A stretch of DNA of 64,000 nt from Nymphaea colorata. Taxonomy: Eukaryota > Streptophyta > Magnoliopsida > Nymphaeales > Nymphaeaceae. The DNA lies in assembly GCF_008831285.2 (NCBI RefSeq), contig NC_045150.1, positions 7,514,001 to 7,578,000 on the forward strand, in the 5' to 3' direction. The notes under the pieces were generated by a model that saw only the letters and a program-made list of their open reading frames with translations, was not told the origin of the DNA and ran no database searches. A program made the position numbers and the translations under genes. Position 1 is the stretch's first letter. Every line of letters begins with the position of its first letter. Shown in pieces: positions 6,726 through 56,260 of this stretch.

Positions 6726-6854
6726 GAAAAGGGAGGTATGAATCTCCCTATTTGAAGAAATCGGCAGCACACACTGCATGCCATCAATAGAGTCTGCGGA
6801 TAGGACTAGTGTCTCTGCCTGAGCCTAATTAAGTCAGTACCCAATTGATCTTCA

Positions 6855-7180
6855 AACCATAGTTATAAATAACGTTTCGAAGTTTTAAACAGTGAGGTTT
6901 TTCTCATGTATAATACGAGAATCCTGAAAAAAAATAAAAAATATGGTAAATTTTTAAAAATTAAAAAAAAACTGAAAATGAAAAGTGAGAAACTAATAAC
7001 ACAAACATGAAACGGTAAGTATATTTGCAACAAATAAAAAATTAAAAATTTAAAAAACCTGTTTGACATTAAAAAAATAAAAAAAAAGTGAAAAAACGTG
7101 TTTTTAAATGTTTTAAACAGCAATTTAATTGCGTTTTTGAGGGTTTTTTTTTAAAATGTGCTTTTTGTGACTATGCTTCA
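6855..7180 (-). repeat. A+T-rich dispersed repeat, copy 1 of an inverted pair
   Basis: This stretch is the reverse-complement relative of 32780-33150. Both copies carry the same order of landmarks: a CATAGTNANAAAT-like end, a tetrapyrimidine-rich body, a GTTTGTGTTATTAGTTTCTCA core and a TTTAAACAG-like block. The 86-codon Phe-rich ORF it contains (the same order of hydrophobic residues is seen in the other copy) is a by-product of the T-rich sequence, not a gene. Confidence 0.6.
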
Positions 7181-14356: not shown

Positions 14357-14971
14357 CTAGGAGACGCAGGAAAAGTTCCACAGGCACACATCCGTAACGC
14401 AATCCGGCGACCACTCTTCCACCTCTCCCACGGCCTGCCCGCAGTCCAATCCCGACCACCACTCCTCGTTGATGTTCCCCTTGAGCAATGCCGGCAACTC
14501 CTCCCAGAAGTCGTCCTTGTTGCCATCTCGTCCTTCGCCACCAACGACGAACTCTTCGGCGACCCCCACCACCAAGGCGGCTCCACCATCCGCACAGGAA
14601 CCCGTCACCGACTTCCCCACGAAAGACGAGGCAGCCGCTGCAGCGGCGGCCTGGATGTCCCTAGGGGAGGAGGTGGCGGGACGTGGAAGAAGCTCCGCCT
14701 CGTCCGGGAAGTTGAGGGCTGCCTTCCTCCCCTTCAGGCACAACGCCGCCGCGTCGTATGCTCGCGCGGCCATCTCCGGAGTCGGGAACGACCCCAGCCA
14801 AATCCTCGACTTCTTCCGCGGCTCTCGGATCTCCGATACCCACCTTCCCCACCGCCTCTTCCTTACCCCCCTGAACACTGGATGCCTCGTCGCTTCTCCG
14901 CTACTGCCGCCCACCGCCTTTCGCCTCTCATCCGCCGGAATTTCCGATCTCCGGTCGCTGGACGCCTTCAT
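14357..14971 (-). CDS. DREB-subfamily AP2/ERF transcription factor
   Basis: Single-exon gene for a 204-residue nuclear DNA-binding protein. One AP2/ERF domain occupies about residues 33-90, with the [19 protein letters not shown] strand region and the RAYDAA helix region. Val and Glu at the positions that separate DREB from ERF members (Val45 in W-V-S-E and Glu50 in R-E-P) mark it as DREB type, which in known members binds the DRE/CRT core CCGAC. The [20 protein letters not shown] segment is closest to the TINY-like (A-4) group in my judgement. An Ala-rich run follows the domain and the C-terminus is acidic and Trp-containing, plausibly an activation region. The open frame extends further upstream only through non-ATG codons; the ATG at 14971 is the first in frame and lies below a TATA-like box, so it is the start chosen. 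No intron, typical of this family. Confidence 0.88.
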
Positions 14972-15014
14972 CTCCCTTCCGTTCCCCGCTCGCTCCCTCC
15001 TCACTCCCCATCCT

Positions 15015-17321: not shown

Positions 17322-17541
17322 CAGGGGCAGAGCGAAGGCAGGGCCTGAATGGGCTCTAGCCCCACCTCGATTTTTTTTTTTTTAAATTTACATGTAAATT
17401 TTTAAAAAATTTCACTTGTTCTACGTAAAAATTTTTGAAAAATGATCTTTCGGCCTTAGTTAAAATTTAGAAACTTTAATTCGGCCCCCTTTATAAAAAA
17501 AATTTGAACTCTACCTATGCTCATATGTGGCTCCACCTATG
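17322..17541. repeat. hAT-type MITE copy, 'GGGGCGGAGCC...GGCTCCGCC' family
   Basis: Begins CAGGGGCAGAGC and ends GTGGCTCCACCTATG. The interior has the family signature: GCCCCACCTCGA, a TTTTAAATTTACATGTAAATTTTTAAAA block, and GGCC(C)-flanked A+T-rich sequence. Other copies appear at 23478, 29045, 34305, 40215, 56268 and 57388. Confidence 0.55.
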
Positions 17542-20880: not shown

Positions 20881-21659
20881 AAAAAGGGTCAGTTGGTTAA
20901 ATACATTAACAGCTAACAATGGTCTAAGACCAAGGAAGCAAAATTTATGGCTCAGTTTATAGAATTTTTCTTTGTAAATTTTTTTTGTCTGGCAGCCTTC
21001 CTTTTGCTGTTAAAGGCATGAAAGATCCTCGTTGCTTTTAATTTCCTATCACCGTCAACTGCTTTTCTTAAGTTTGACAAGTGCAGTGTCAGGTTAAAGT
21101 TTGCCAGTCAATTTTGAAAAAGCTGGAGAAGAACTGAAGTTCAGGTTACTTAGAGTGGATATAGCTGGGAAGCCATAAAAAACATGTCTCTTTCTGAAAT
21201 TAAGGGAAAGATTAGGTGGCCTGCCTGAATTTTTTAAGTTTCTTTCTTCCAGCTGAGCTGAGCAGCAAGATGAGGTACAGTGTCACATGCACAAAATGCT
21301 TGTAAACACTGCCCAATGTTTTAATTAGTGTAACCAAGCAGAACTTGTTATTAGCCAAGAAAAGCTGTATGCTAGTTTTCCAACATAAGACTTATTTATG
21401 ATATATTTAATATGAAAGATCCTCTAGATTTTGTAAAATAATGCCTTAATTTCTAAGTCCCTTAGTCAACATTGTAATATTTTTCAGGTGATGGATTTCC
21501 CAAGGTCCAAAGGAGCTCATGTAATGGGGCAGGCTATGCCTGTCAGATTTGCCCTCAGTCGTAATTTGACTATCATTGGCATCACTAGTTGCATATCCTG
21601 AGCTAATTTGGTGAAATTCTTGGAGCCGCTAGTAGTTGAACTAAGGGAATATTAGTTAG
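20881..21659. other. Intergenic; no gene seen
   Basis: T-rich sequence with no supported exon, ending at the target-site duplication of the hAT-like element. Confidence 0.45.
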
Positions 21660-22046
21660 TAGGGGCAAACACGAGCAGAGTCGAGCCCGAGTTTAGTCAG
21701 CTCAAGCTCGAGAATAGCTCGATGGAAGCAGCTCGAGCTCGACTCAGTAGTTACGTGTTGAGCACGAGCTCGACTCAATTAAGGCTCGACAAACTCGTTT
21801 GAATAGAATTGATATTCATCGTTACGTGTAGAGCTAGAGTAAACTCATTTTAATATATCAACTTGATTAAGGCTCAAACTCAACTCGACGGGTACGTGTT
21901 GAACTCGAACTCAACTCGATTATTTGAACTGAATCAACTCATGAACTCGACCTCGACTCATTAAGCAAATGACTCGGTTCAAACTCGTTCAAGAGCCGAG
22001 CTTTAATGAGTCGAGCTAGAGTAGCTTGATTCGTTGTTCCCCCATA
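21660..22046. mobile_element. hAT-like MITE with GAGCTCGA-rich interior, copy 1
   Basis: The left end is TAGGGGCAAACACGA and the right end TCGTTGTTCCCCCATA, imperfect terminal inverted repeats. Flanks TTAGTTAG (left) and TCCGTTAG (right, 22047-22054) match at 6 of 8 positions, consistent with the 8-bp duplication of hAT elements. The interior is built of degenerate CTCGAGCTCGACTCAA-type units also found in the copy at 45433. No transposase. Confidence 0.65.
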
Positions 22047-29044: not shown

Positions 29045-29215
29045 GCGCAGGATCAGAAATTTTCATAAAAAGGGCCAAATTATAATTTCAAAATTTTAAG
29101 AAGGGCCAAAATATATATAAGATAAATATTTTTTTTTTAAAATTTAGTTGTAAATAAAAAAAAATTAAGGAGGGGACAAGCCCTTACCAGCCCCACGTTG
29201 GCTTCAGTCCTGGCT
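29045..29215. repeat. hAT-type 'TGGCTCCGCC' family copy, decayed
   Basis: Carries the AAGGGCCAAATTATAATTTC, TTTTAAAATTTAGTTGTAAAT and GGGGACAAGCCCTTACCAGC blocks of the family and ends in ACGTTGGCTTC, a degraded version of the terminal ACGTTGGCTCC. Confidence 0.5.
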
Positions 29216-29288
29216 TCGAGGAGTGTAATATAATTGGCGAGACGTTGGCTTCAGTCCTGGCTTCGAGGAGTGTAATATAATTGGCGAG
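29195..29288. repeat. Perfect 47-bp tandem duplication
   Basis: The unit starting ACGTTGGCTTCAGTCCTGG and ending ATTGGCGAG occurs twice in direct succession (29195-29241 and 29242-29288) without a mismatch, spanning the end of the hAT-type repeat. The perfect identity indicates a recent event. Confidence 0.9.
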
Positions 29289-31308
29289 TTTGTGCCTGCC
29301 GTAATTACAGTAATTTCCTTAGATCGTAAATGGTGGGATTTGTGATACTCAAATGGGTATCCACCTGAGCCTGAACTTGCAAAATTAATCTACAACACAT
29401 GCACTTTATGTTATTAATATGTTTTTTTTTTTTTCACTTAGTACACATGCACAGTACATAATTGTTAAGATTGAGAAAGGTATATCTACACGTACATCTA
29501 TGAGTCCATTTCTTAAAGCTTCATATCGTGTTTTTCGGACAGGTGCCAAACTTTTGCCGACTATTGCGAAATGAAGACTTCACATCAAATCAAATCATGT
29601 TAAAACACGTCAAGTTTTAAATTATTTTCCAATTCCATGCAACGACGATTGGAATTGGTTTTTTCTTTGCACAACAATGAAAAGCAATACTGCTGCCATT
29701 CAATTTGACTGATTATTTAACCAGGCGTGTGGATCTTCCTTTTTTGGACTGCTCTTTGTTAAGAAAGATTTGCGGAGTGCAGTAGAATTTCAAAAATGTT
29801 AAAAATAAGGCCATTCATTTCCATCAAGATTTGATGTAACATTTTGATTGGTAAGGATTATATATATATATAGAAAGAGAGAGAGATTCTTAAAACAATT
29901 GCCATTACAAGTGAAGTCAAAAGTTATTTCAAGCTCTATAAAGGGGGTGATTTTTTTAATTGACAAAGATAAAGTCTGGATCTAAATCAAACCATGAAAT
30001 TTATCTTTGAATCCAAAGGTTTTTCTTATAGTTAGATGCTGACGTCGGCCTCTACTTTGCATGATTTCTTAATGAAGTGCATGTAACACGATTACACTGC
30101 ACAAAAATGAACGTCAATTTGGAATATCGACGACCAACATGAAATATTCGTTTTTCCAATTGCTTCATCGTCTTCTTATTATTTTATGAAAATTAATGAC
30201 ACGCTATTTCTTTTAAAAGGGTTAGGCAACCTAACCCAAATTATTTATCATGTTAGATAATTTCATCGCATTGTATAATCATAGAGCTTTTAAGATCAGC
30301 GCCTTAATTAAAACCAATAGAGGATATATTAGAATATGGCCGCAAGATTATTTGATTGTTAGTGCAGATCGCAATAAATAAGCCGCGTTGAAGATGCCTT
30401 ATCGTGGGAGAAATAAGTTTTTAAAAGAGATGTTCTTCCTGCAAGATGACTACGGCCTTGACTTATGGGCAACTGACACTAAACCAGCTAGCTCTGGACT
30501 TAAGCGATGAACATGCATTCTGAAACAAATTAATTGAATCATTGATTTGTTACTTAGAGTTAACATAACTTATGCCAATTGGAGACACTTGAATATATGT
30601 CTCTCTTGTCTCGTTTTTGACTTTTCATTCTTATTCAAGATGCGTATCGTTTCATTGGCTAAATTTTTAAAAACAGTATCAAATAATTTGTCAATAGCAA
30701 TAACGCAGCTACGAATTAGTGAGAACACAGACTCTCTCTCTCTCTCTCTCTCTCTTTCTTTCTCTCTCTTATTTGTCTGATTTTTTTTACAAAGTATTCA
30801 AAATAAGAAAACTTTTTCCATTACTCCAGTTTCAAATATTTCTTGTTATATTTGTAATTGCTTTTTTTCTTTCTTTTCTTGTTAGGCAGAGAAATCTGGA
30901 TTTGGGTAGACCTAATCAGAATCCACGTTTTCATTTAACATATGCTGATACACGTATATTTGGATTCCATTTTAAAATCACCTGTTATCTGGATCATGTT
31001 CTGATATATGGATCTATATAATGAACTTATCATTCTCATATCCATGTCTTAAGTTCATATATATTGGGATGGGTTCCATAGTCGATACTTAACCAGTGGA
31101 AAGCCCAAGTTACATGTTCGTGGAGGCAACCATGGATGAAAAACGTCTAACAAACAATCTAAGGCCCGCACTGATTAATAGTAAAACGGAAAAAGGTTAT
31201 TTCTAAATCAAATGAAGTTTGCTTATATATATATATATATTATAGTACAGGAGAATAAATACTAGCCCATAGTTGTTGCCAGAATTGTGGCCAACAAGGC
31301 TTTAGATT
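29289..31308. other. Intergenic; no gene seen
   Basis: No supported exon or RNA gene. Contains a (CT)n tract at 30732-30770 and (TA)n at about 31225-31240. Confidence 0.45.
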
Positions 31309-31792
31309 GGACCCATGTCTACCGAGGTCCAACATGTAAATTCAATGTTTTAGATTGGGCTCTGTAGAGCATATCTCCGCCCCTGATCTAGAGATTTAGG
31401 TTTCATTATAGGAACGTGAGGAACGTCTCGTTTTTAGTTTTTCTACAACTGTCGATGCTGAGCATATACAGGAGGTAATCATATGGAAGGTGTTGATGAA
31501 TTTGGACAAGCTAAAACATATATATGAGGAGTCGATTTGGATCACAGACATACTGACAACAGAGAAGGAAGGTCTTCATACGAGATCTGATTCATCTGCA
31601 ACTTTAAAATCAAGTGCTAACTGAGTCAGGTTAGCAGTAAAGGACGATGCCCATTGACTAACTAGCAGGAATGTACAAGGAGCTAGCTTAGCTTAGCTCG
31701 AGTTGGGCTGGAGTGACATATTACTCAGCTGAAACTCAATTCGAGCTTCATGAGGCAGGTCGAACTCAATCTTGACCTACTTAAGCTCGTGT
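31309..31792 (+). repeat. Left arm of a ~984-bp inverted repeat
   Basis: Reverse complement of 31804-32292 with an 11-base loop (31793-31803). The region about 31455-31690 is nearly identical between arms; outer parts are more diverged, and one 12-base insertion lies near 31706. The arm contains a 60-codon open stretch running on the plus strand (IQEVIIWKVLMNLDKLKHIY and on, ending KSSAN-stop), conserved in both arms; I do not recognise it. The inner 100 bases use the same CTCGAG/CTCAACTCGA wording as the hAT-like MITEs. Confidence 0.9.
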
Positions 31793-31803
31793 CTCGTGTC
31801 ATT

Positions 31804-32292
31804 ACACGTGCTTAAATAGGTCAAGATTGAGTTCGACCTGCCTCATGAAGCTCGAGTTGAGTTTGAGCTGAGTAATATGTAACTCGAGCTAAGCTAAGCT
31901 AGCTCCTTGTACATTCCTGCTAGTTAGTCAATGGGCATCGTCCTTTACTGCTAACCTGACTCAGTTAGCACTTGATTTTAGAGTTGCAGATGAATCAGAT
32001 CTCGTATGAAGACCTTCCTTCTCTGTTGTCAGTATGTCTGTGATCCAAATCGACTCCTCATATATATGTTTTAGCTTGTCCAAATTCATCAACACCTTCC
32101 ATATGATTACCTCCTGTATATGCTCAGTATCGATGGTTGTAAAAAAACTCAAAACGAGACATTCCTCAAATTCCTATAATGAGGTGGAATTCAGAACAAA
32201 AAGAAACCTTCTCCGGATCAAGGGAGGAGATATGCCCCAAGCCCAATCTAAAACTTTGAATTTACATGTTGAACCTCGGTGGACATGGGTCC
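31804..32292 (-). repeat. Right arm of the ~984-bp inverted repeat
   Basis: Inverted partner of 31309-31792. The same 60-codon open stretch reads on the minus strand here, with near-identical protein sequence. The outermost 170 bases retain alignment (for example GGACCCATGTC-ACCGAGG next to the end) at visibly lower identity than the interior. Confidence 0.9.
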
Positions 32293-32779
32293 CGTTATAT
32301 GGGTAGCCCCACTAGACCTGAGTGACTGGCCGAAAGGCAATTGAAAATAGGTTAAATATTTCGTCCTACGAAAAAAAAAAAAAAAATCTATCTCTACCTA
32401 TGCTCCAAATACAAGGATGTTGGGGGTAGAACGGCACAAGATAAGAATACCTCTTCATTTGGGTCAAAGATGACCTGCGGTGTTTCATGTTGGTGAAGAT
32501 TGGCCAACAGAAAAGGCTTGAGCCAAGTCAAATTTAAACAAGTGGAGCTCTTGTAACTTGAACTAGACTTGTTTATAACTTAAGTTTTAACTGTCCGGTT
32601 CAGATTTACATTGTAGGGTTTGAGTTAGGGTGGATTCCTTTGGGTCTGCCTGCTGTTGTTCCGGATCTAAAGCAGGGAACGTCTGAACTGGATGCAGGTT
32701 GAATCTGGCCTTACACGGTACACGCATTGTCTTATACATTATATTAGTAGGCCCGTGACATTGTCTTATACCTCGGGAA
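32293..32779. other. Intergenic; no gene seen
   Basis: Contains a poly-A run near 32371. No supported exon. Confidence 0.4.
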
Positions 32780-33150
32780 AAAGGGTAGTGACCGAAGAAT
32801 GAAAGTTTTAACCTCGAAAAAACGCAAAAAAGGGATAAGTTAAATGGCTGTTTAAAACTTTTAAAAGTGCATTTTTTTGAAAGAAACATTAAAAACAAAA
32901 CACATTTTTTTTTCACTTTTTTCATTTTTTCAGTTTTTTTAAAGTCAAACATTTCATTTTTTATTTTTTATTTGTTGCAAATCTACTTATCTTGTGATGT
33001 TTGTGTTATTAGTTTCTCACTTATTTTATTTTATTTTTATTTTTTAAAATTTTTCAAAATTTACCATATTTTTCTTTTTTTTTCAAGCTTTCCGTATTAT
33101 ACCCGAGAAAACCTCGCCGTTTAAAACTCTACGACGTTATTTGTGACTAT
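32780..33150 (+). repeat. A+T-rich dispersed repeat, copy 2 of an inverted pair
   Basis: Inverted relative of 6855-7180, ending GTTATTTGTGACTATGGTTTT. The 85-codon Phe/Ile-rich ORF is the counterpart of the one in copy 1, which shows that the similarity is of the repeat and not of a conserved protein with a start and stop. Confidence 0.6.
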
Positions 33151-33317
33151 GGTTTTAACTGGGGTTGCAGATGGTTCACATTTTTTTTGAAGGCTTTCTC
33201 GATTTCTATTGCATTTGATAAGACTTTTAATTTATTTCTCAGGATCCAATCTAATAGTTGACCTACCACTATGTCTGAAAATAGATGGCATGTTGCAAAA
33301 ATTGAGTATTATAACTT

Positions 33318-37277: not shown

Positions 37278-38278
37278 CTATTTCAGGAGTGAAACCACTA
37301 GAAGTCTCAATTTGGCTTGACTTTTCTCTATCTCTGATGCGATGCATTGCTTCTTCTTATTTGTGCTCCAGTTGACAATGAATAATGAAGGTTTAACATT
37401 CCGTTTGGACCGTAGTGCTCTCTGTCTTTCATGCATTGTATCTTTTGTGAGAGAATGTTGTTCCAGTTGATTTATCGTAGAAGAAATTCCACTGTGACAA
37501 ATATTCACAGAAAATAACTGCTCCCTCAATTGATAAACCTCTGGAAACTCATGATTAATGAATAGCTGGCTCGAAGAAATCGTATCAACTGATTTTCCAC
37601 TGAAATCACTAACTCTACCAGCCTTCACAGCTAAAACAAGGCGCATCCTAGAATCACACATTTTTTGCAGCCTTTGTCCTTCCATTTTGTGAAAGTTACC
37701 CCATATGGTTAATTCAACACTTCGCCCTGACATGTCCTTCAACTGAAGAGTTCTTTTATCTGTTTTTGTACCATTTTTTCGCATTATGGTAGAGGAAGGA
37801 TGCACATAGACCTAAAGTTAAAGTTAAACTGCTGCCTAGGAATAGAACTGTCTTCGCCTAAGCATGGCTCTATTGTTAAAGTTGACTCCAAAATGATTTC
37901 TTATTCACTATTAAGGTGATTGAAGTTCTTTTGAGCTGACTTTATACTTCCCTTGGATATCAAGTACATCTTACCTACATTGATCCTATCATAAAACTGA
38001 TCCACCACCAAATTGAAGCAAGTAACATGAATTTCCCCACCACCAGAGTCTAGTATATCAAAAGAAAAAAGTTTGCCATCTCCTGTGGGATTGTTGTATC
38101 GCCAAAGCTCACCTTCTGATGTGACTCTTGCTTTAACTGTCCATCTTCCCTGACATGGGTTTAACGCAACAATTGGAATAATTCGAGCATAAGCTTCATT
38201 TTTAACAATAGGCCCTCTATTGACATATGATGGTTCCCTCGCCATAGCAATAACATCTTTTGTCAAATTCACAGACAT
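37278..38278 (-). pseudogene. RPA1 (RPA70) pseudogene fragment: DNA-binding domains A and B
   Basis: RPA1 is the large subunit of the single-strand DNA-binding complex used in replication and repair. The 5' part encodes DBD-A (NRGPIVKNEAYARIIPIVAL, then WTVKARVTSEGELWRYNN and GKLFSFDILDSGGGEIHVTC, ending AQKNFNHLNSE). A TAA at 37901-37903 replaces a codon that is sense in the family; beyond it the same frame continues with recognisable sequence (EPC..DSSIP.QQF). Near 37800-37815 roughly 25 codons are missing and the frame shifts. DBD-B then follows (PSSTIMRKNGTKTDKRTLQL, DMSGRSVELTIWGNF, SGKSVDTISSSQL). The N-terminal protein-interaction domain and the zinc-containing DBD-C are absent; after LREQL the sequence is unrelated to RPA1. 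It is a degraded partial copy. Confidence 0.82.
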
Positions 38279-39390
38279 GTCTCAAATGCACAAAAGAAAG
38301 GAGTCATAAAAAAGAAAAAGAAAAAAAGACTACAAAAACACAAACATGCAGAGACAAGTAGATGAGGACTTGAAGAGAGAAACAGGGGAACAAAGTTCAT
38401 GGAAGACAGAGCGGGCTCTCTTCTTTCTTCCGTTAAAAGGGAAGACAGAGAGGCTCATATCGGGTGGCGGGATGGATGGCGGGTGGCGGGAGAGAAAGGT
38501 GATGATGGGTGATAGGTGATGAGACAGAATGTGACAAAAAGGATGCAAAGTGCTTTAGATGTCAAAACCATATTTGGATCGTCCTTGTTTCAGATACATA
38601 CTAGATTTGATTTTCAATGCTGATCATCTGATCATAAATCATGCGTGGGGAGAGGATGGCCAAGCGAGTGAACTCTAGAAGGCAAGTTTGGCAAGTAAAT
38701 CTTGTACTTCAGTATTGTCATTTTCAATTCTCAGGATGTAGTTATGTAGATAAGATATTACACTTCATAGTCCTCTTACTTTCCCTAGATTCATTTTGAA
38801 TTCTGATCTTCAATCTCCAGATTAAAAGATACATCTTTCTTTGTCTCATGAATTCTGATCCTCAAATGTTGCATCCAGTTTCTGAGATTAAATTAGATGT
38901 TCAAACATGACATATGACTAAGCAATTGGGTATAAAATATCCACAATGATTTGGATGTTTACTCATCAAAACATGTGAATCCTCTCATTCAAATCCACCC
39001 GGACCAGTGACGGTAATCACTGGGCTCTCCCTCCTCAATAACCAGAACCTATGCAAATTTGTCTAAGCAGGTCACCTAGTGGAATTTTAGTTTTGCAAGA
39101 TTATCAAAGGCATATCTACAAGTCGGAAGGTACAATTCCAGAGTTTTGGTAACATATGTGAATTTTTACAGCAAAAAATAAATAAAATGTCATTTATTGA
39201 AATCAGATCCAGATCATGCTTATATGTAGATTTGGATGCAAATTTCAGATCTGAATTTAAGGGTGATCATTAGAATGTAAATGGGTTATCGTGTGGGGTT
39301 TGAGGGTTTCATCGTTTTCTATTTCACTAGATGACTTAGATCTCTAATTCATTTTGCTTGTTTGAGATTCCATCTGTTTAAAATCTGTCT
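38279..39390. other. Intergenic; no gene seen
   Basis: Upstream side of the RPA1 fragment. No N-terminal RPA1 domain or promoter recognised. Contains GATCC/GGATC-rich repeat debris at about 38570-38640 and 39200-39260. Confidence 0.45.
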
Positions 39391-40214: not shown

Positions 40215-40415
40215 TCATGGGCAGAGACAAAATTTTTTTATGTGGCAGACTGAATTAAAGCTTTTAAATTTTAACAAAGGCCGAAATATCATTTTTCAAA
40301 ATGTTTATACCGAACAAGTGAAATTTTTTAAAATTTACATATAATTTTTTTTTAAAAAATTGAGGTGGGGCTAGGGAGCAAACGGCCCTACGTTGGCTCC
40401 TTCCCTCTTTGCATT
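40215..40415. repeat. hAT-type 'TGGCTCCGCC' family copy
   Basis: Starts near GGGCAGAGACAAAA, has the TTTTAAATTTTAACAAAGGCC and TTTAAAATTTACATATAATTTT body and ends GCCCTACGTTGGCTCCTTCCC. Confidence 0.5.
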
Positions 40416-43098: not shown

Positions 43099-44046
43099 AT
43101 GGCGCCGGAGGAACAGTTAGAAGCAATAAGGTTCCGTTGGTTTCCTTCATTACCCCACCCTTTTCACATTTCTTCTGAGATTCGGGGATTTCTGTTTTGT
43201 TCCATGCTTTTTCGTTTCTTTTTCTGATTTTAGTTGGTCTTGTTGCTGAAGGGTGCAAAAGTCTTGACGGTTGGTGCTGGAGGCATCGGTTGTGAGCTTC
43301 TTAAGACGGTTGCTGTCTCGGGGTTACGAGATGTTCATACGGTAAACTTCCTTTTTTTTTCCACCCTGAGATTTGTCTGGGTAGTTTTTTGTGCTTTCTA
43401 TTTAGTGGGTTTTGGGTTTTTTTTTTTCGGTTCTACTTCTCTTGCGTCTTGAATTTTTAAAGTACGCGTGGTTGAATTTTCATGAGAAGAATGGTGTCCA
43501 CAACTCGGCGGGTTCATTCTCATAATGTGATTCTGATTATCGTAGGGATCTCACTCTTCTATTTTAAAGTGACGGAGGACATGCATTTATTCTTTTATTT
43601 TGTTTTTTTTTTCCCTTGGATTTAAAGCTTGTCTTTTTGCAGATTGGTATGGACACCATCGAAGTGAGTAACTTGAACCGACAGTTTCTGTTCCGCAAAT
43701 GGCTAAAGTAAGTCTCTGATTTTACTGAGTCTAAGTCTCTGATTTTACTGAGTCACTAACTAATTTACTAATACGCGTGATTCTTAATCTTCGCATGCTG
43801 AATAATGCTCTTCCTTGTCTTGAAAAGGTCGCGAGAGAAGCGGTTTTGAAATTCAAGCCTGACATAAGTATTACAGCATATCATTCTAATGTCAAGGATC
43901 CGGACTTCAATGTGGATTTCTTCAAGCAGTTTAATGTAGTTTTGAATGGTGTAGACAACTTAGATGCTCGTCGGCATGTTAACCGACTCTGTTTGGCTGC
44001 TGATGTCCCTTTGGTTGAAAGTGGAACGACAGGGTTTCTAGGACAG
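43099..44046 (+). pseudogene. Truncated SUMO-activating enzyme subunit 2 (SAE2/UBA2) pseudogene, exons 1-4
   Basis: SAE2 carries the adenylation and catalytic-cysteine domains of the SUMO E1. Four exons of its N-terminal adenylation domain are seen: 43099-43130 (MAPEEQLEAI), about 43252-43341 ([19 protein letters not shown], the nucleotide-binding Gly motif), 43643-43707 (MDTIEVSNLNRQFLFRK) and 43828-44046 ([14 protein letters not shown], then [14 protein letters not shown] and [10 protein letters not shown]). Lesions: joining exon 1 to exon 2 at the available AG leaves the wrong frame; the ATP-contacting Asp of the I-D-x-D-T-I motif is Gly (IGMD); exon 3 is 19 bases shorter than expected, removing the S-H-V-G-Q-S-K segment with its ATP-binding Lys and shifting the frame; nothing after exon 4 is found, so the catalytic Cys, ubiquitin-fold domain and C-terminus are missing. 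A full protein is roughly 600 residues or more. Confidence 0.8.
43709..43754. repeat. Perfect 23-bp tandem duplication in SAE2 intron 3
   Basis: TAAGTCTCTGATTTTACTGA plus GTC occurs twice in succession right behind the exon 3 donor. The first copy supplies the GTAAGT donor. Confidence 0.9.
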
Positions 44047-45424
44047 GTGATGGACTGTTTATCTGGTCTCTTGGTTTGAAGTTCCTACATCTGTAACTGA
44101 GATTATGTTTTTCAATGACACATGCTTTTTAATCTTCATTCTTCTCTGGGACTTATGTTGATCCATTCCCTCAGTTGCACATGCTGGGTGCGCTCAACAA
44201 AAACTGGATGTTTTATCTTTTTCCTTTTCTTTTTGTCATCAAATGTAACATAATGAGAGGAAAAATGTGCATGGGTAGAGGCCTATAGCAATATGAGGGA
44301 AAAGAAGGGACAAGATTATTGCATCTAGCTTTTAATGTTTTGCATAGATTTGTGGTTCATATTGCAACAAGTTGAGAGTTGGTCATGCAACCTGAGAGCT
44401 TCCCATCAATAATCTATATGGTTCCTCTACATTAACGGTATCGTTGGACCTTTTCTAGTAATCAGTCTATTTAGTTTGCAGGTTGTTTAAACTATGGTAA
44501 ATCTTGAATCTTGATACATTTCAAATGATAACATGATTAGCTATACCCAAGGGCATACATCCATGTGTAGTAATACCCGCAAACGTTTTAGGCTCTTCCT
44601 GCTAGCAGAGAGGTCAAAATATCGCATGAACTGGGTCAACAAGTTGGTTGTATGCCAGTGTCTTGTTCTTTTCTTCATGATTATGTTAAGCACGTTCGTG
44701 AAAATCCTCTTAGAAATTAGCATAGCCTGCACTATGGACACGATTGGCAAAAGCAGGTCCCCAGATGAAATTAGGGTTTTCATTCCCATAGATGGAACAA
44801 TCTCCAACTAGCTATATATTTCGAGAATGACATTTCTCTGCAGGCAATAACAACAAGCATGCACCAAAGGAGGGTGCGGTATTTTTGAATTTTTCGCAAA
44901 GTAATGGACATTTTAGCATTTTTTTAATTTTTTCTTTTTTCACAATCCCTCTTTATCCTTCTAAATAGTTACTTTTGTATTTTAATAAAATTATTTTGGC
45001 CACTGCACACCCCTTTAAACTATTCATGCTCGTATTATGAGCGACATCGGCTGCGTATTTGCCAAGTGCATATCGGCCACAAGCTGAAACGACGCTGACC
45101 AATAAAGGATATGGAACCATAATATTTTTTCTGTTTTATTGTATATTGTAAACTCCGGGGCAACTGACCTTGAAGAGACACTTGGCGTATTTTTTCTTAA
45201 TGATAAGATAAAATACGCCTGCTCATTCATAATATTATATAAATTATTTATTGACTTATTTTTAAATTGAAAAATGATATATATTGTGCTAGAGAACAAA
45301 ACGGATAGATACGGCAGCGATACAGCACTCTATTTATTTGTCTTATGCCAAGCAACACCAACCACATTTTGCTATACATTCAACATTACTAAAAACGAAT
45401 AGGGTTAACAATTGGTACATGGCC
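44047..45424. other. Downstream of the SAE2 fragment; no further exons
   Basis: A+T-rich intron-like sequence. I looked for the conserved exons that follow in SAE2 (cysteine-rich zinc segment and catalytic domain) and found none on the plus strand. Confidence 0.5.
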
Positions 45425-45432
45425 CTACGAGC

Positions 45433-45894
45433 TAGGGATGAACAATGACATTAAAGGTCCACTAGTGAATGAGTTTGAGTTGAGGCATTTGCTTAATGAG
45501 TTGAGTTTGAGTTCATAATTAAACTCATTCAAATAATCGAGTTAAGTTCGAGCTCAACACGTAACTGCCAAGTCGAGCTCGAACCTTAATCAAGTGGATA
45601 TATTCAAACGAGATTACGAGTTCATCGAGCCTTAATTGAATCGAGCTTGAGCTCAACGCATGACGATGAATATCAATTCTATTTAAACGAGTTTGTCGAA
45701 CCTTAATCGAGTCAAGCTCAACATGTAATGATGAATATCAATTTTATTCAAACGAGTTTATCGAGCCTTAATCAAGTAGAGCTGGAGCTGCTTCTGTCGA
45801 GCTATTCTCAAACTTAAGGTTTCATTAGTCGAGCCAAGCTTGAGCTGCTTGAGCTGACTGAACTTGAGCTCTACTAAGCTTGTGTTCACCCCTA
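45433..45894. mobile_element. hAT-like MITE with GAGCTCGA-rich interior, copy 2
   Basis: Left end TAGGGATGAACAA and right end TTGTGTTCACCCCTA are terminal inverted repeats. Flanking octamers CTACGAGC (45425-45432) and TTACAAGC (45895-45902) match at 6 of 8 positions, as an 8-bp hAT duplication would. Interior units such as TCGAGCCTTAATTGAATCGAGCTTGAGCTCAAC repeat several times with ~45-base periodicity. It lies in opposite orientation to the copy at 21660. Confidence 0.7.
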
Positions 45895-45902
45895 TTACAA
45901 GC

Positions 45903-46234: not shown

Positions 46235-47305
46235 CTAATGGCACACGGGGCACATAATCAGCCCGTTCTCGTTGCACCGTGTGCACCTTACAAACACCTC
46301 CTTCTCGTCCACGACCTTGCAACTCCCACTGCAATCCAAACAAGGAATGAACCTCAAGTCTCCGCAGGCCTCACAAGCCTCGCCGGAATTCTCACCCTTT
46401 GGGCCGACGGTGTCCAGCATCTCCCCAAGTTTCCCCCTTTCGTTGAGGTCTACCATCTCCTCCACGCCACCAACGTACCTCCCTTTGATGAACAGCCTCG
46501 GCACGAAGACTCCCTCGCCTAGCAGTTCCCTCAACTCCGTTAGATAGTCCTGGTGAAGCGATACGTCTCGCTCGTCCACCGTCACCCGGTACCCCTCCAT
46601 CACCGACTTGGCTCGCTTGCAGTCCTCAAAAGTCCGCCGGACGCCCCGAAGTGTTGTCGTGTACAAGACGACTTTGTCGGCACCGGTCGGAGGGCACTTC
46701 TCCGGCAGACCCTCCAGAGGGTCCCTCTTTCGGCGGGGGAATCTTGGCATCGAGTTATCGTCCTTGTTCCTTTGTAGCCGGTCCATAACGATAAAGTAGT
46801 TGTCCTTAAGCTTGCCGGCTTGGGTGGAGTCCAGGATTGGCTTCGCCGCCGAAGAGACGGCATTTTGGCTTGTGGGTTGTGGAGGTTTAGGCTCAGGCTT
46901 CTGTGTGAGCTTAGCATCCAGCTCCTCGAGTGTGTGGAAGGACTGCTTCTTGCTGATCGGCTGCGTCTTCTCTTCTGCCGGGGACTCTCCAGGACGTTTC
47001 TCGGTTTCCGGGCCGGGTTGGGCTTTAGGCTTTTGGTCAAGTGTAGGCTTCAGGTCTTCTAGTGCTTTACTCACCTCTGACCATGAGTGAGGAGCATCGG
47101 GTGCGAGTTCAAAGGTGTTGAGCTTTTCTAATAGAGGCTTCGGCACTTCCATTCCCTTGCCTGATTTTGGTTGCAGATGTTGCTGCTGCTGCTGTTGCTT
47201 CAGCCATGGCTCTTCTATGGACTCAAGGTTAAACAGGGCTAGGCTTGCGCCTGTTGGACGGTAAACGTCCATTGGCTCGACATGTTTCGAGGAAACGCAG
47301 CCCAT
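46235..47305 (-). CDS. Glutaredoxin-domain protein with C-terminal Cys-rich zinc-ribbon-like tail
   Basis: Intronless gene, 356 residues. The true start is the ATG at 47305; the open frame upstream has only a TTG. The protein begins MGCVSSK, an N-myristoylation signal (Gly2) with an adjacent Cys3 suited to palmitoylation, so membrane attachment is likely. A hydrophilic Pro/Gln/Lys-rich region follows, including an 8-Gln-rich stretch near residue 37-42. The glutaredoxin fold spans about 211-300: KVVLYTTTLRGVRRTFEDC, the FVPRLFIKGRYVGG segment with its cis-Pro, then the helix LNERGKLGEML. The usual CxxC redox site is replaced by TTLRG, as in this plant family, leaving a single Cys in FEDC. The tail has paired cysteines (CEAC, CLDC, CTRC, CPVC), probably binding zinc. 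Molecular substrate unknown for the family. Confidence 0.88.
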   Translation of the reverse strand: MGCVSSKHVEPMDVYRPTGASLALFNLESIEEPWLKQQQQQQHLQPKSGKGMEVPKPLLEKLNTFELAPDAPHSWSEVSKALEDLKPTLDQKPKAQPGPETEKRPGESPAEEKTQPISKKQSFHTLEELDAKLTQKPEPKPPQPTSQNAVSSAAKPILDSTQAGKLKDNYFIVMDRLQRNKDDNSMPRFPRRKRDPLEGLPEKCPPTGADKVVLYTTTLRGVRRTFEDCKRAKSVMEGYRVTVDERDVSLHQDYLTELRELLGEGVFVPRLFIKGRYVGGVEEMVDLNERGKLGEMLDTVGPKGENSGEACEACGDLRFIPCLDCSGSCKVVDEKEVFVRCTRCNENGLIMCPVCH

Positions 47306-47550
47306 CTTTGGGGTGAAGGAAAGAGTTGCAGGCAAGGAATGAATGTGCTCGGAATCTGCTTATGACATAATGTTTCGAGATGGCTTATCTCTAAGAGAAT
47401 GGCAGGTGGGCCGTGAATTTATGAACGGCACATGTCAAGGCGACGTGTGTGATGTAGAGCTGAACAGGTGGCCGGACTGGGTTGGTTCAACTTGCAATTT
47501 GCTGTTCACGGGAGAAACATGTGGTTTGTGCTTAATATGGGCCGAGAGAT

Positions 47551-48672: not shown

Positions 48673-51600
48673 TCACCGGAAGTTCTTTCGCCGGCCGGTG
48701 CCACCGGGAGGCGGCGTACGCTCCTCCCCACCACTCGAATCAGCACTGTAGCCGGTGACCCCATGGGTCCTTACCCGCATATCGACGGCTTTCGTGCTTG
48801 AGCTCCTCTCCTGGCTCGCCGGCGCGCCGTAACCACCGGAGCTCGATGAGTCTCCGGTGGATCCGACACGCCTGGATGGAGGCTTCCACGCATAGGCCAG
48901 GGGTGGGGCATGTCTCTGAGGAATGTGGACCCGGGCCTTGGCCATGGACGAACGTGTGTTTGCCATGTAGCTGGGTGTGGACACCACCTTCACGGAGGGA
49001 GTCATGTCCTTGCTCGGCACGTAGGTGACGGTGACCTCCTTCTCCGGCGAAAGTGGTGGGCGTCGGAAATTTCTCGCCGGAATATTGGTACTGCGGTGGT
49101 TGCCGGCGTCCACGTAGGACGATGTCCTAGCAATGTCCATCTCGACGGTCTTCTCGGACATGTCGTCGGTGTTGTTGACCGTGAGGTAGGAGCCCCCCGG
49201 TACGGCGTGGCGACCATCAGACGGCCGCGTCGAGATCCAGTGGTCCAGCCAGTCCCAGCCCCACTGCGTCTTGCCAGATTGCGCACCGGAAAAATTTTCT
49301 CCGTAGCTGGACTCCGGATGCCATTGCTGAAAGTGAAGAATATTCCTTGACATTTAGAAAGTTAAACGGAAAAGACAAGAAATACGACTTATATGGATTG
49401 GATCATGTATGTCAGAATTGATTCCCGATTCTAAGTAGGGAATCTTGTAGTCAAGAATTAACTTTCAGCAAACACAAAACAATATCGGACTAGATTATTC
49501 AAACTTAATTCCTAGCAGGATCGAGGTTCAAAATAAATAACACATGATCTTTATTGTTGTTAGAACACTTCAGGCAAATTCATAAAACAATAACAAACTG
49601 TTTCATTTGCCAAAAGATCTGAAATTCAGTTAGTGGAAGACCAGTTTATTAGATCTACGCTCATGGAAACACACAACACATTGATGCTGCTTCGAGAACA
49701 CATTATGCTCATCCATTTGCATGCATGCATGCGACACACACACACAGCCACAGCTACACATATACAGTCAACATACCTTATGGGCATATGCATAAGCGAG
49801 TTCCTTCTCACGTTCAATGACAGCATCATGTTTCCTAGAAGCAACATTCCTTCTACCTTCTTCCCTGCCATGGTTTCTGTCGTCCCAGCTATCCACTTCC
49901 AAGCTTGGCGAATAATAATCATCATCATCAACGTCGCCATCAAAATAATCACCGTCATCGTAATCCCCATACATGTCCTCTTTGCCATCATCATCGCCAA
50001 CAACAATAACAAGCTCATCTTCCTTCTGTAACTGGTCTCGGCGTCTCTCCTGTGCGATCAGAAGCCGGCGAGCCCGCACCCGGGCTTGAACCCGGACCAG
50101 TGCCTGCATGCAGCGCATGGTCACCTGCGCCTGCTTCCGCACATTGTGCCCTCGGACCAGCGCTTGCAGTCTCACGAGGCCCTTGAGTGCACGCAGGGCT
50201 CTTCTTGCCTGAAACACCACTTGTGTCGTTTAAGCACATTACATAACCGATCATTGGCTCGTCTAATCAATTGGATCGGGTCTAATGCTTATCAACCTGA
50301 TCCATGTATGATCTCCATGAAAGCAGTACTTTTAAGAGAACAATAAGCAAAAAAACACGTACACTAAGATATATTATATTTGAAGTTGATATAAAATATT
50401 TAAAAGTGGTTATTTGATTTAGATATATTATATTTCTGGTTGTAGAGTTTGAGAGTGGAAGAGATTAGGTTGGCAAACAGAACAATATATAACTATTTCA
50501 CAAATATGGTACTAATATTGAGACAAATTCATGGAATAACTTAAAATGTATTGTATGAATCTGCTCCAACTTTTGAGGTAGATCTAAAAAACATTTATAA
50601 ACCATTTTATTTGCCAAACGGACCCTGATCGAACCAAGCAACTCAATCTCTTTTCAATTGATCACAGTATAATGTAGCCTATGTAGGTGCACAATATCAA
50701 GTATATCGTAAGCCCAGAAATTACACAATGTTTTTATAGGTATTAGGTAAAGTACTCAGATCTAGATATTAATAAATCTTGTCTTCCTATTTTGGTAACT
50801 CAAGAGACTGACTTTATGAAGTTGAAATAAAAGAAGAACTTTGAAGATCCACTGGTTAAGTATCCTTAATTGATCTACCAGAGAAAAGTTTCTCCACGAT
50901 CCTTGAGCCTTACGCAGGGAAGGACCCGCATTTGTCTTCACAGAACTTCGCTCAACCGTGAAGTGAGTGTTTTTCCCTTCAGCATGAGTTGGCTGTGTTC
51001 AATCATTCCAAATTGAAGGACCTTAATTGTTGGTCCTCCCCATAGACAAAACCAACACGTGAACTTCACGTGCTCTACTTTCCTGTGAAAGGGAACTACT
51101 TTTCCCAACCTAAATGAAAGCCCATGGAAACTATGTCAGATGGATAGGTACGTATGATATGGCCAATTACTCGAGTCCTGTTGCATTTTAGAACACATTT
51201 TTTTTTTCTTCAAACTCAATTTTTGCTTTAATTTTGATTTTCCTTTTTTACTTATTTAATTTTGAGAATTATGTGTATAAATATATTCATTATATATATA
51301 TATATACACCTTACTTACTGTACCCCATACCTATAATTTTCAAAATTGATATGTTTGTACCCACACCATGGTATATATACTTGTACCCATGTAACATAGC
51401 AGGGAGATAATATATCCCAACTGGATTATTTTGCCGAGAAAGTAAAGGGGATTTTAGAAGTTGGGGGGTCTCCTAGTGCTTTGGATTGTGTCTCGATCGC
51501 TGATACAAACACAAATATGGAAATATTGCCCAGGGAGCGTGCAATATTGGATGTGACCCGAATCACCAAGATCCAAAATCAAGAACTCTGAAGTCTGAAC

Positions 51601-56176: not shown

Positions 56177-56260
56177 TTTATATATATATATATATATATA
56201 ACACTAAATGGTGACTTTATTTATATATATATATATATATAACACTAAATGGTGACTTTA
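56177..56260. repeat. Tandem duplication of ~42 bp containing a TA run
   Basis: TTTATATATA...TATAACACTAAATGGTGACTTTA occurs twice in direct succession, differing only in the number of TA units. Confidence 0.85.

Follow-up and report, generated by a model that had tools for sequence, protein, structure and literature searches.

The 984-base element at positions 31309-32292 of the window (the whole 64-kb stretch of DNA analysed here) is probably, at odds that we put at roughly 0.6, a non-autonomous foldback DNA transposon, that is, one with long terminal inverted repeats. Five observations point to this reading: the arms share sharp outer ends that are 94% complementary over their last 53 bases; together they span the whole element; a run of 247 of the 474 alignment columns holds only one of the 28 differences between them; the six frames of the surrounding 28-33 kb contain no Pfam domain; and foldback MULEs of like build have been published (PMC4486113). 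Against it stand the lack of a second copy in the 64-kb window, of a credible target-site duplication and of a transposase domain in 23-43 kb. Foldback elements are already known in plant genomes, and the element is most likely ordinary in kind.

The element consists of a left arm of 484 bases (31309-31792, plus strand) and a right arm of 489 bases (31804-32292, minus strand), which is the inverted copy of the left one and pairs with it around an 11-base loop (31793-31803); the left arm ends in the same 7 bases (31786-31792) with which the loop begins. It is thus nearly all arm, without an interior, and the similarity between the arms ends abruptly and at common points on both outer edges, where the terminal inverted repeat reads GGACCCATGT...ACATGGGTCC. 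Long arms that form most of the element, together with common outer ends, are features expected of foldback or long-TIR transposons. When the window was compared with itself by blastn (low-complexity filter on, E up to 0.001), the element was the sole long inverted repeat with arms no more than 6 kb apart; the other six of the seven inverted-repeat matches were 28-43 bases long, and each had one or both partners within or next to a simple repeat. The inverted repeat, its arms, its 11-base loop and its near-identical middle had all been described, with exact coordinates, in an earlier sequence-only reading of this DNA. That reading had also seen no terminal inverted repeats belonging to a known family, a statement to be corrected in that the arms themselves form a conserved terminal inverted repeat with sharp ends, which may or may not belong to a named family. 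We also observed that the ten bases TTTAGATTGG at 31301-31310 (left flank plus two arm bases) recur 48 bases further in, at 31349-31358, which may be chance or the remnant of a repeated end.

When aligned with each other, the arms differed by 16 transitions and 8 transversions, which makes 24 mismatches over 470 ungapped columns, and by four gaps, or 28 differences in 474 columns if each gap is counted as one event. These differences were unevenly distributed. The outermost 53 columns (31309-31361 on the plus strand, 32240-32292 on the minus strand) had 3 mismatches. Over the next 93 ungapped columns inward there were 16, and this part also contained the gaps of 3, 7 and 12 bases. The following 247 columns, in the middle of the arm, had a single difference, and the inner 77 columns, preceded by a gap of 11 bases, had 4 mismatches. 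The 247-column stretch lies within a gap-free block of 302 bases, 97% complementary between the arms (31403-31704, plus, and 31881-32182, minus), and 27 of the 28 differences fall outside these 247 columns. With gaps counted as events, none of 200,000 random placements produced 247 consecutive columns holding one difference or fewer; for mismatches alone, the corresponding figure was 5e-6 for 262 ungapped columns with one mismatch, a span that crosses the 11-base gap. The outer ~170 bases of each arm had previously been described as diverged, which is correct for the block just inside the ends and incorrect for the outermost 53 bases. Because the differences cluster non-randomly, the proposal of gene conversion between the arms is strengthened, and the near-identical block, judged from its sequence, is likely to be a conversion tract.

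The bases flanking these ends were compared as a possible decayed target duplication. The 9 bases on the left (31300-31308, CTTTAGATT) and on the right (32293-32301, CGTTATATG) agreed at 6 of 9 positions, a level attained by 1.5% of 20,000 random 9-base pairs from the window. With the length left free, the best observed flank score was equalled in 9.7% of 3,000 random flank pairs, and with both length and position free in 12.1% of 3,000. Candidates away from the exact ends reached 7/9 (which requires moving both ends by 2, unevenly) and 8/11. A decayed 9-base target duplication is possible, while the agreement of the flanks, considered over lengths and shifts, does not appear to exceed chance; the earlier observation that no clear target-site duplication is visible was thus confirmed. 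According to PMC3903597, MULEs make target duplications of 8-11 bp, with at most 2 mismatches if these are 9 bp or longer. The flanks at the exact ends fail this rule, which the 7/9 off-end candidate would pass by count; because of this failure, and because no related transposase is known, we do not assign the element to the MULEs.

Within the 64-kb window, blastn self-comparison found no second copy of the foldback; with up to 4 mismatches allowed, a 25-base end matched in the window only at the two ends themselves, and a 15-base end matched at five further scattered sites, as looser matches would give. A search of a plasmid collection gave no match to the foldback, and the exact 29-base terminal pattern was found 0 times in genome and viral contig collections which, by their description, hold prokaryote, plasmid and viral DNA; such negatives mean little for a plant element. 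Two 15-letter terminal strings had no match in the literature, and an 11-letter string matched 14 papers, whose titles deal with human, rodent or clinical studies or with the RNA biology of animal cells.

These results bear on the main competing explanation, a local inverted duplication of non-coding DNA, leaving a single-copy hairpin that would give rise to siRNAs of the IR71/IR2039 type if transcribed. The absence of a target duplication above chance and of a second copy in the window are both in keeping with it, as is the long and near-perfect hairpin; moreover, loci of this sort are described in Arabidopsis (PMC4687873) and in rice, there as probable precursors of small RNAs (PMC7649420). 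Against it, conservation is higher in the outermost 53 bases than in the adjacent inner block, as would be the case for transposon ends, although conversion could also yield this pattern. We regard a local duplication as a possible but rather unlikely origin.

The element was further considered as a carrier of coding sequence. The longest open stretch common to both arms has 70 codons (31412-31621, plus strand, in the left arm; 31964-32173, minus strand, in the right arm, in the same frame). Since the arm middles are the same DNA, its presence in both arms is one observation rather than two. When the left arm was shuffled by mononucleotides, 70.55% of 2000 trials contained 60 or more consecutive open codons in one or other of the six frames, and of the nine differences between the arms within the 70 codons, seven change an amino acid and two are silent, as unconstrained DNA would be expected to show. 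Pfam gave no match for this stretch, nor for any of the six frames of 28-33 kb (E up to 0.001). On its plus strand, the right arm also has a longer open run of 94 codons, for which the Pfam coverage is the six-frame search of 28-33 kb only; the left-arm equivalent has just 59 codons. A coding reading of the open stretch was therefore rejected on its chance-level length, its 7:2 ratio of changing to silent differences and the lack of a Pfam match. The shared stretch that had been pointed out earlier is indeed present in each arm, as their common DNA entails, and gives no evidence of coding; the same Pfam comparison and chance-level length give no support to the idea of an inverted duplication of a gene fragment.

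Folded as RNA, the element formed one long hairpin of -811 kcal/mol, compared with a mean of -258 kcal/mol for 20 shuffles, none of which was as good, which puts the fold far beyond chance. The earlier statement that RNA copied from the element would form a long hairpin, on which Dicer-like enzymes might act, is thus true by structure; the modelled structure says nothing about transcription. No Rfam family reached its gathering score anywhere in the window. At relaxed thresholds, five sub-threshold matches appeared at the hairpin tip, to four miRNA families and with one of them on both strands, scoring 52.8, 51.8, 51.3, 49.2 and 35.1 bits at E-values between 7e-11 and 4.5e-5, where the curated cut-offs for these four families are 54 to 100 bits. 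As read from the alignments, the agreement lay largely in base pairing and not in the letters, and a near-perfect hairpin might score in this way against miRNA families in general. The hairpin shape and these tip matches (35.1-52.8 bits) are what would favour a young MIRNA gene, or a hairpin that carries a fragment of a host gene and silences the parent gene. Such an origin appears very unlikely: all five matches are below the curated cut-offs, are spread over four families and depend largely on pairing, Pfam shows no similar protein, and the open stretch, at chance level, has seven amino-acid-changing against two silent differences. The young MIRNA locus suggested by the sequence-only reading is accordingly not supported. 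Highly improbable, too, would be a single-copy, transcribed 0.98-kb hairpin that is kept young by recurrent conversion between its arms and serves as a source of siRNAs from long dsRNA, without decaying into a MIRNA.

An assembly artefact, in which a single arm was read twice through a foldback chimaera, would account for the near identity of the arm middles and is just as improbable, since such a doubled read would not place 24 substitutions and four gaps of 3 to 12 bases in blocks, 27 of the 28 outside the middle 247 columns.

The window itself reads as plant nuclear DNA, judging from three regions recognised with Pfam: an AP2-domain open frame (14360-15013, minus strand), a frame of the glutaredoxin type (46238-47359, minus strand) and, on the plus strand, an exon of the ThiF type (43735-44076). 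Such AP2 factors are characteristic of plants. Six chosen frames were compared with Pfam; four matched, and neither 49771-50229 nor the open stretch of the foldback itself did. Closest to the foldback among the recognised exons are those of the OB-fold type (37278-37811 and 37901-38281, minus strand), the nearer one being of the replication protein A type. When the region was searched in 5-kb pieces, Pfam found no transposase domain in 23-43 kb, no domain at all in 23-28, 28-33 and 38-43 kb, and only the OB fold in 33-38 kb; exons split by a piece boundary can escape such a search, as did the exon across 38000. Recognised Pfam domains are thus absent for about 8 kb to the left and 5 kb to the right of the foldback. 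The OB-fold gene (37278-38281) has no further Pfam domain downstream to 23 kb; it is perhaps only part of a gene, or some of its exons may have escaped Pfam.

Several other repeats were observed in the window. Inverted CGAGCTC-rich repeats at 21657-22008 and 45449-45897, about 71-74% similar, look by their sequence like members of one old dispersed family; the copy at 21.7 kb had no Rfam match at relaxed thresholds. Descent of the inner tip of the foldback (31690-31797) from these repeats at 21.7 and 45.5 kb was considered in four comparisons and is not relied on. On the same strand, 1.3% of 300 shuffles in each case scored at least as high as the actual alignment, on the opposite strand 8.7% and 13.7%, and the exact blastn matches were of 17 and 14 bases (E 0.017 and 0.71), so that kinship is suggestive at most. 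A dispersed A+T-rich repeat, inverted and ~80% identical over its best 251 columns, lies at 6851-7113 and 32884-33158, the latter copy about 600 bases from the foldback; a further inverted dispersed pair, ~78% identical, lies at 17330-17519 and 40216-40399. Exact tandem duplications are found at 29195-29288 (47 bases), 43709-43754 (23 bases) and 56181-56260 (41 bases).

If the element is a foldback transposon, it would have been inserted by a transposase supplied from elsewhere, which recognised the terminal repeat. After insertion the arms would have diverged, and gene conversion, by copying arm on arm, would later have restored near-identity over about 250 bases midway along each, possibly through a cruciform or a hairpin repair intermediate. 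If transcribed, the self-folding RNA could feed the ordinary Dicer-like silencing of transposons. The putative conversion tract is a warning that the identity of the arms may mislead as a clock for foldback elements, and that even a nearly perfect hairpin may be old.

The element was compared with several known systems. In models of MIRNA precursors that originate as hairpins, whether MITE-derived or by inverted duplication (PMC10004981), a long hairpin such as this one is the proposed starting form; unlike those precursors, the foldback has no Rfam family at threshold and no parent gene found by Pfam. With IR71, IR2039 and the long inverted repeats of rice it shares a long inverted repeat that would be a substrate for Dicer-like enzymes if transcribed; for those loci, transcripts or small RNAs are reported. 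MuTAnT of Medicago, with which FARE1 and Jittery are named as similar (PMC4486113), is 292 bp long, with 144-bp arms that form a foldback. It differs from the present element, which has arms of 484 and 489 bases, no clear 9-base target duplication (6/9), a site outside any TA microsatellite and, within the 64-kb window, neither a related autonomous element nor a second copy. Nematode Mutator/foldback elements, whose composite arms average 93.15% identity within an element (PMC3169594), are similar to it in architecture. Like MuTAnT, FARE1 and Jittery, the element consists almost wholly of two long inverted arms able to form a hairpin, and by this analogy its architecture resembles that of the plant foldback MULEs.
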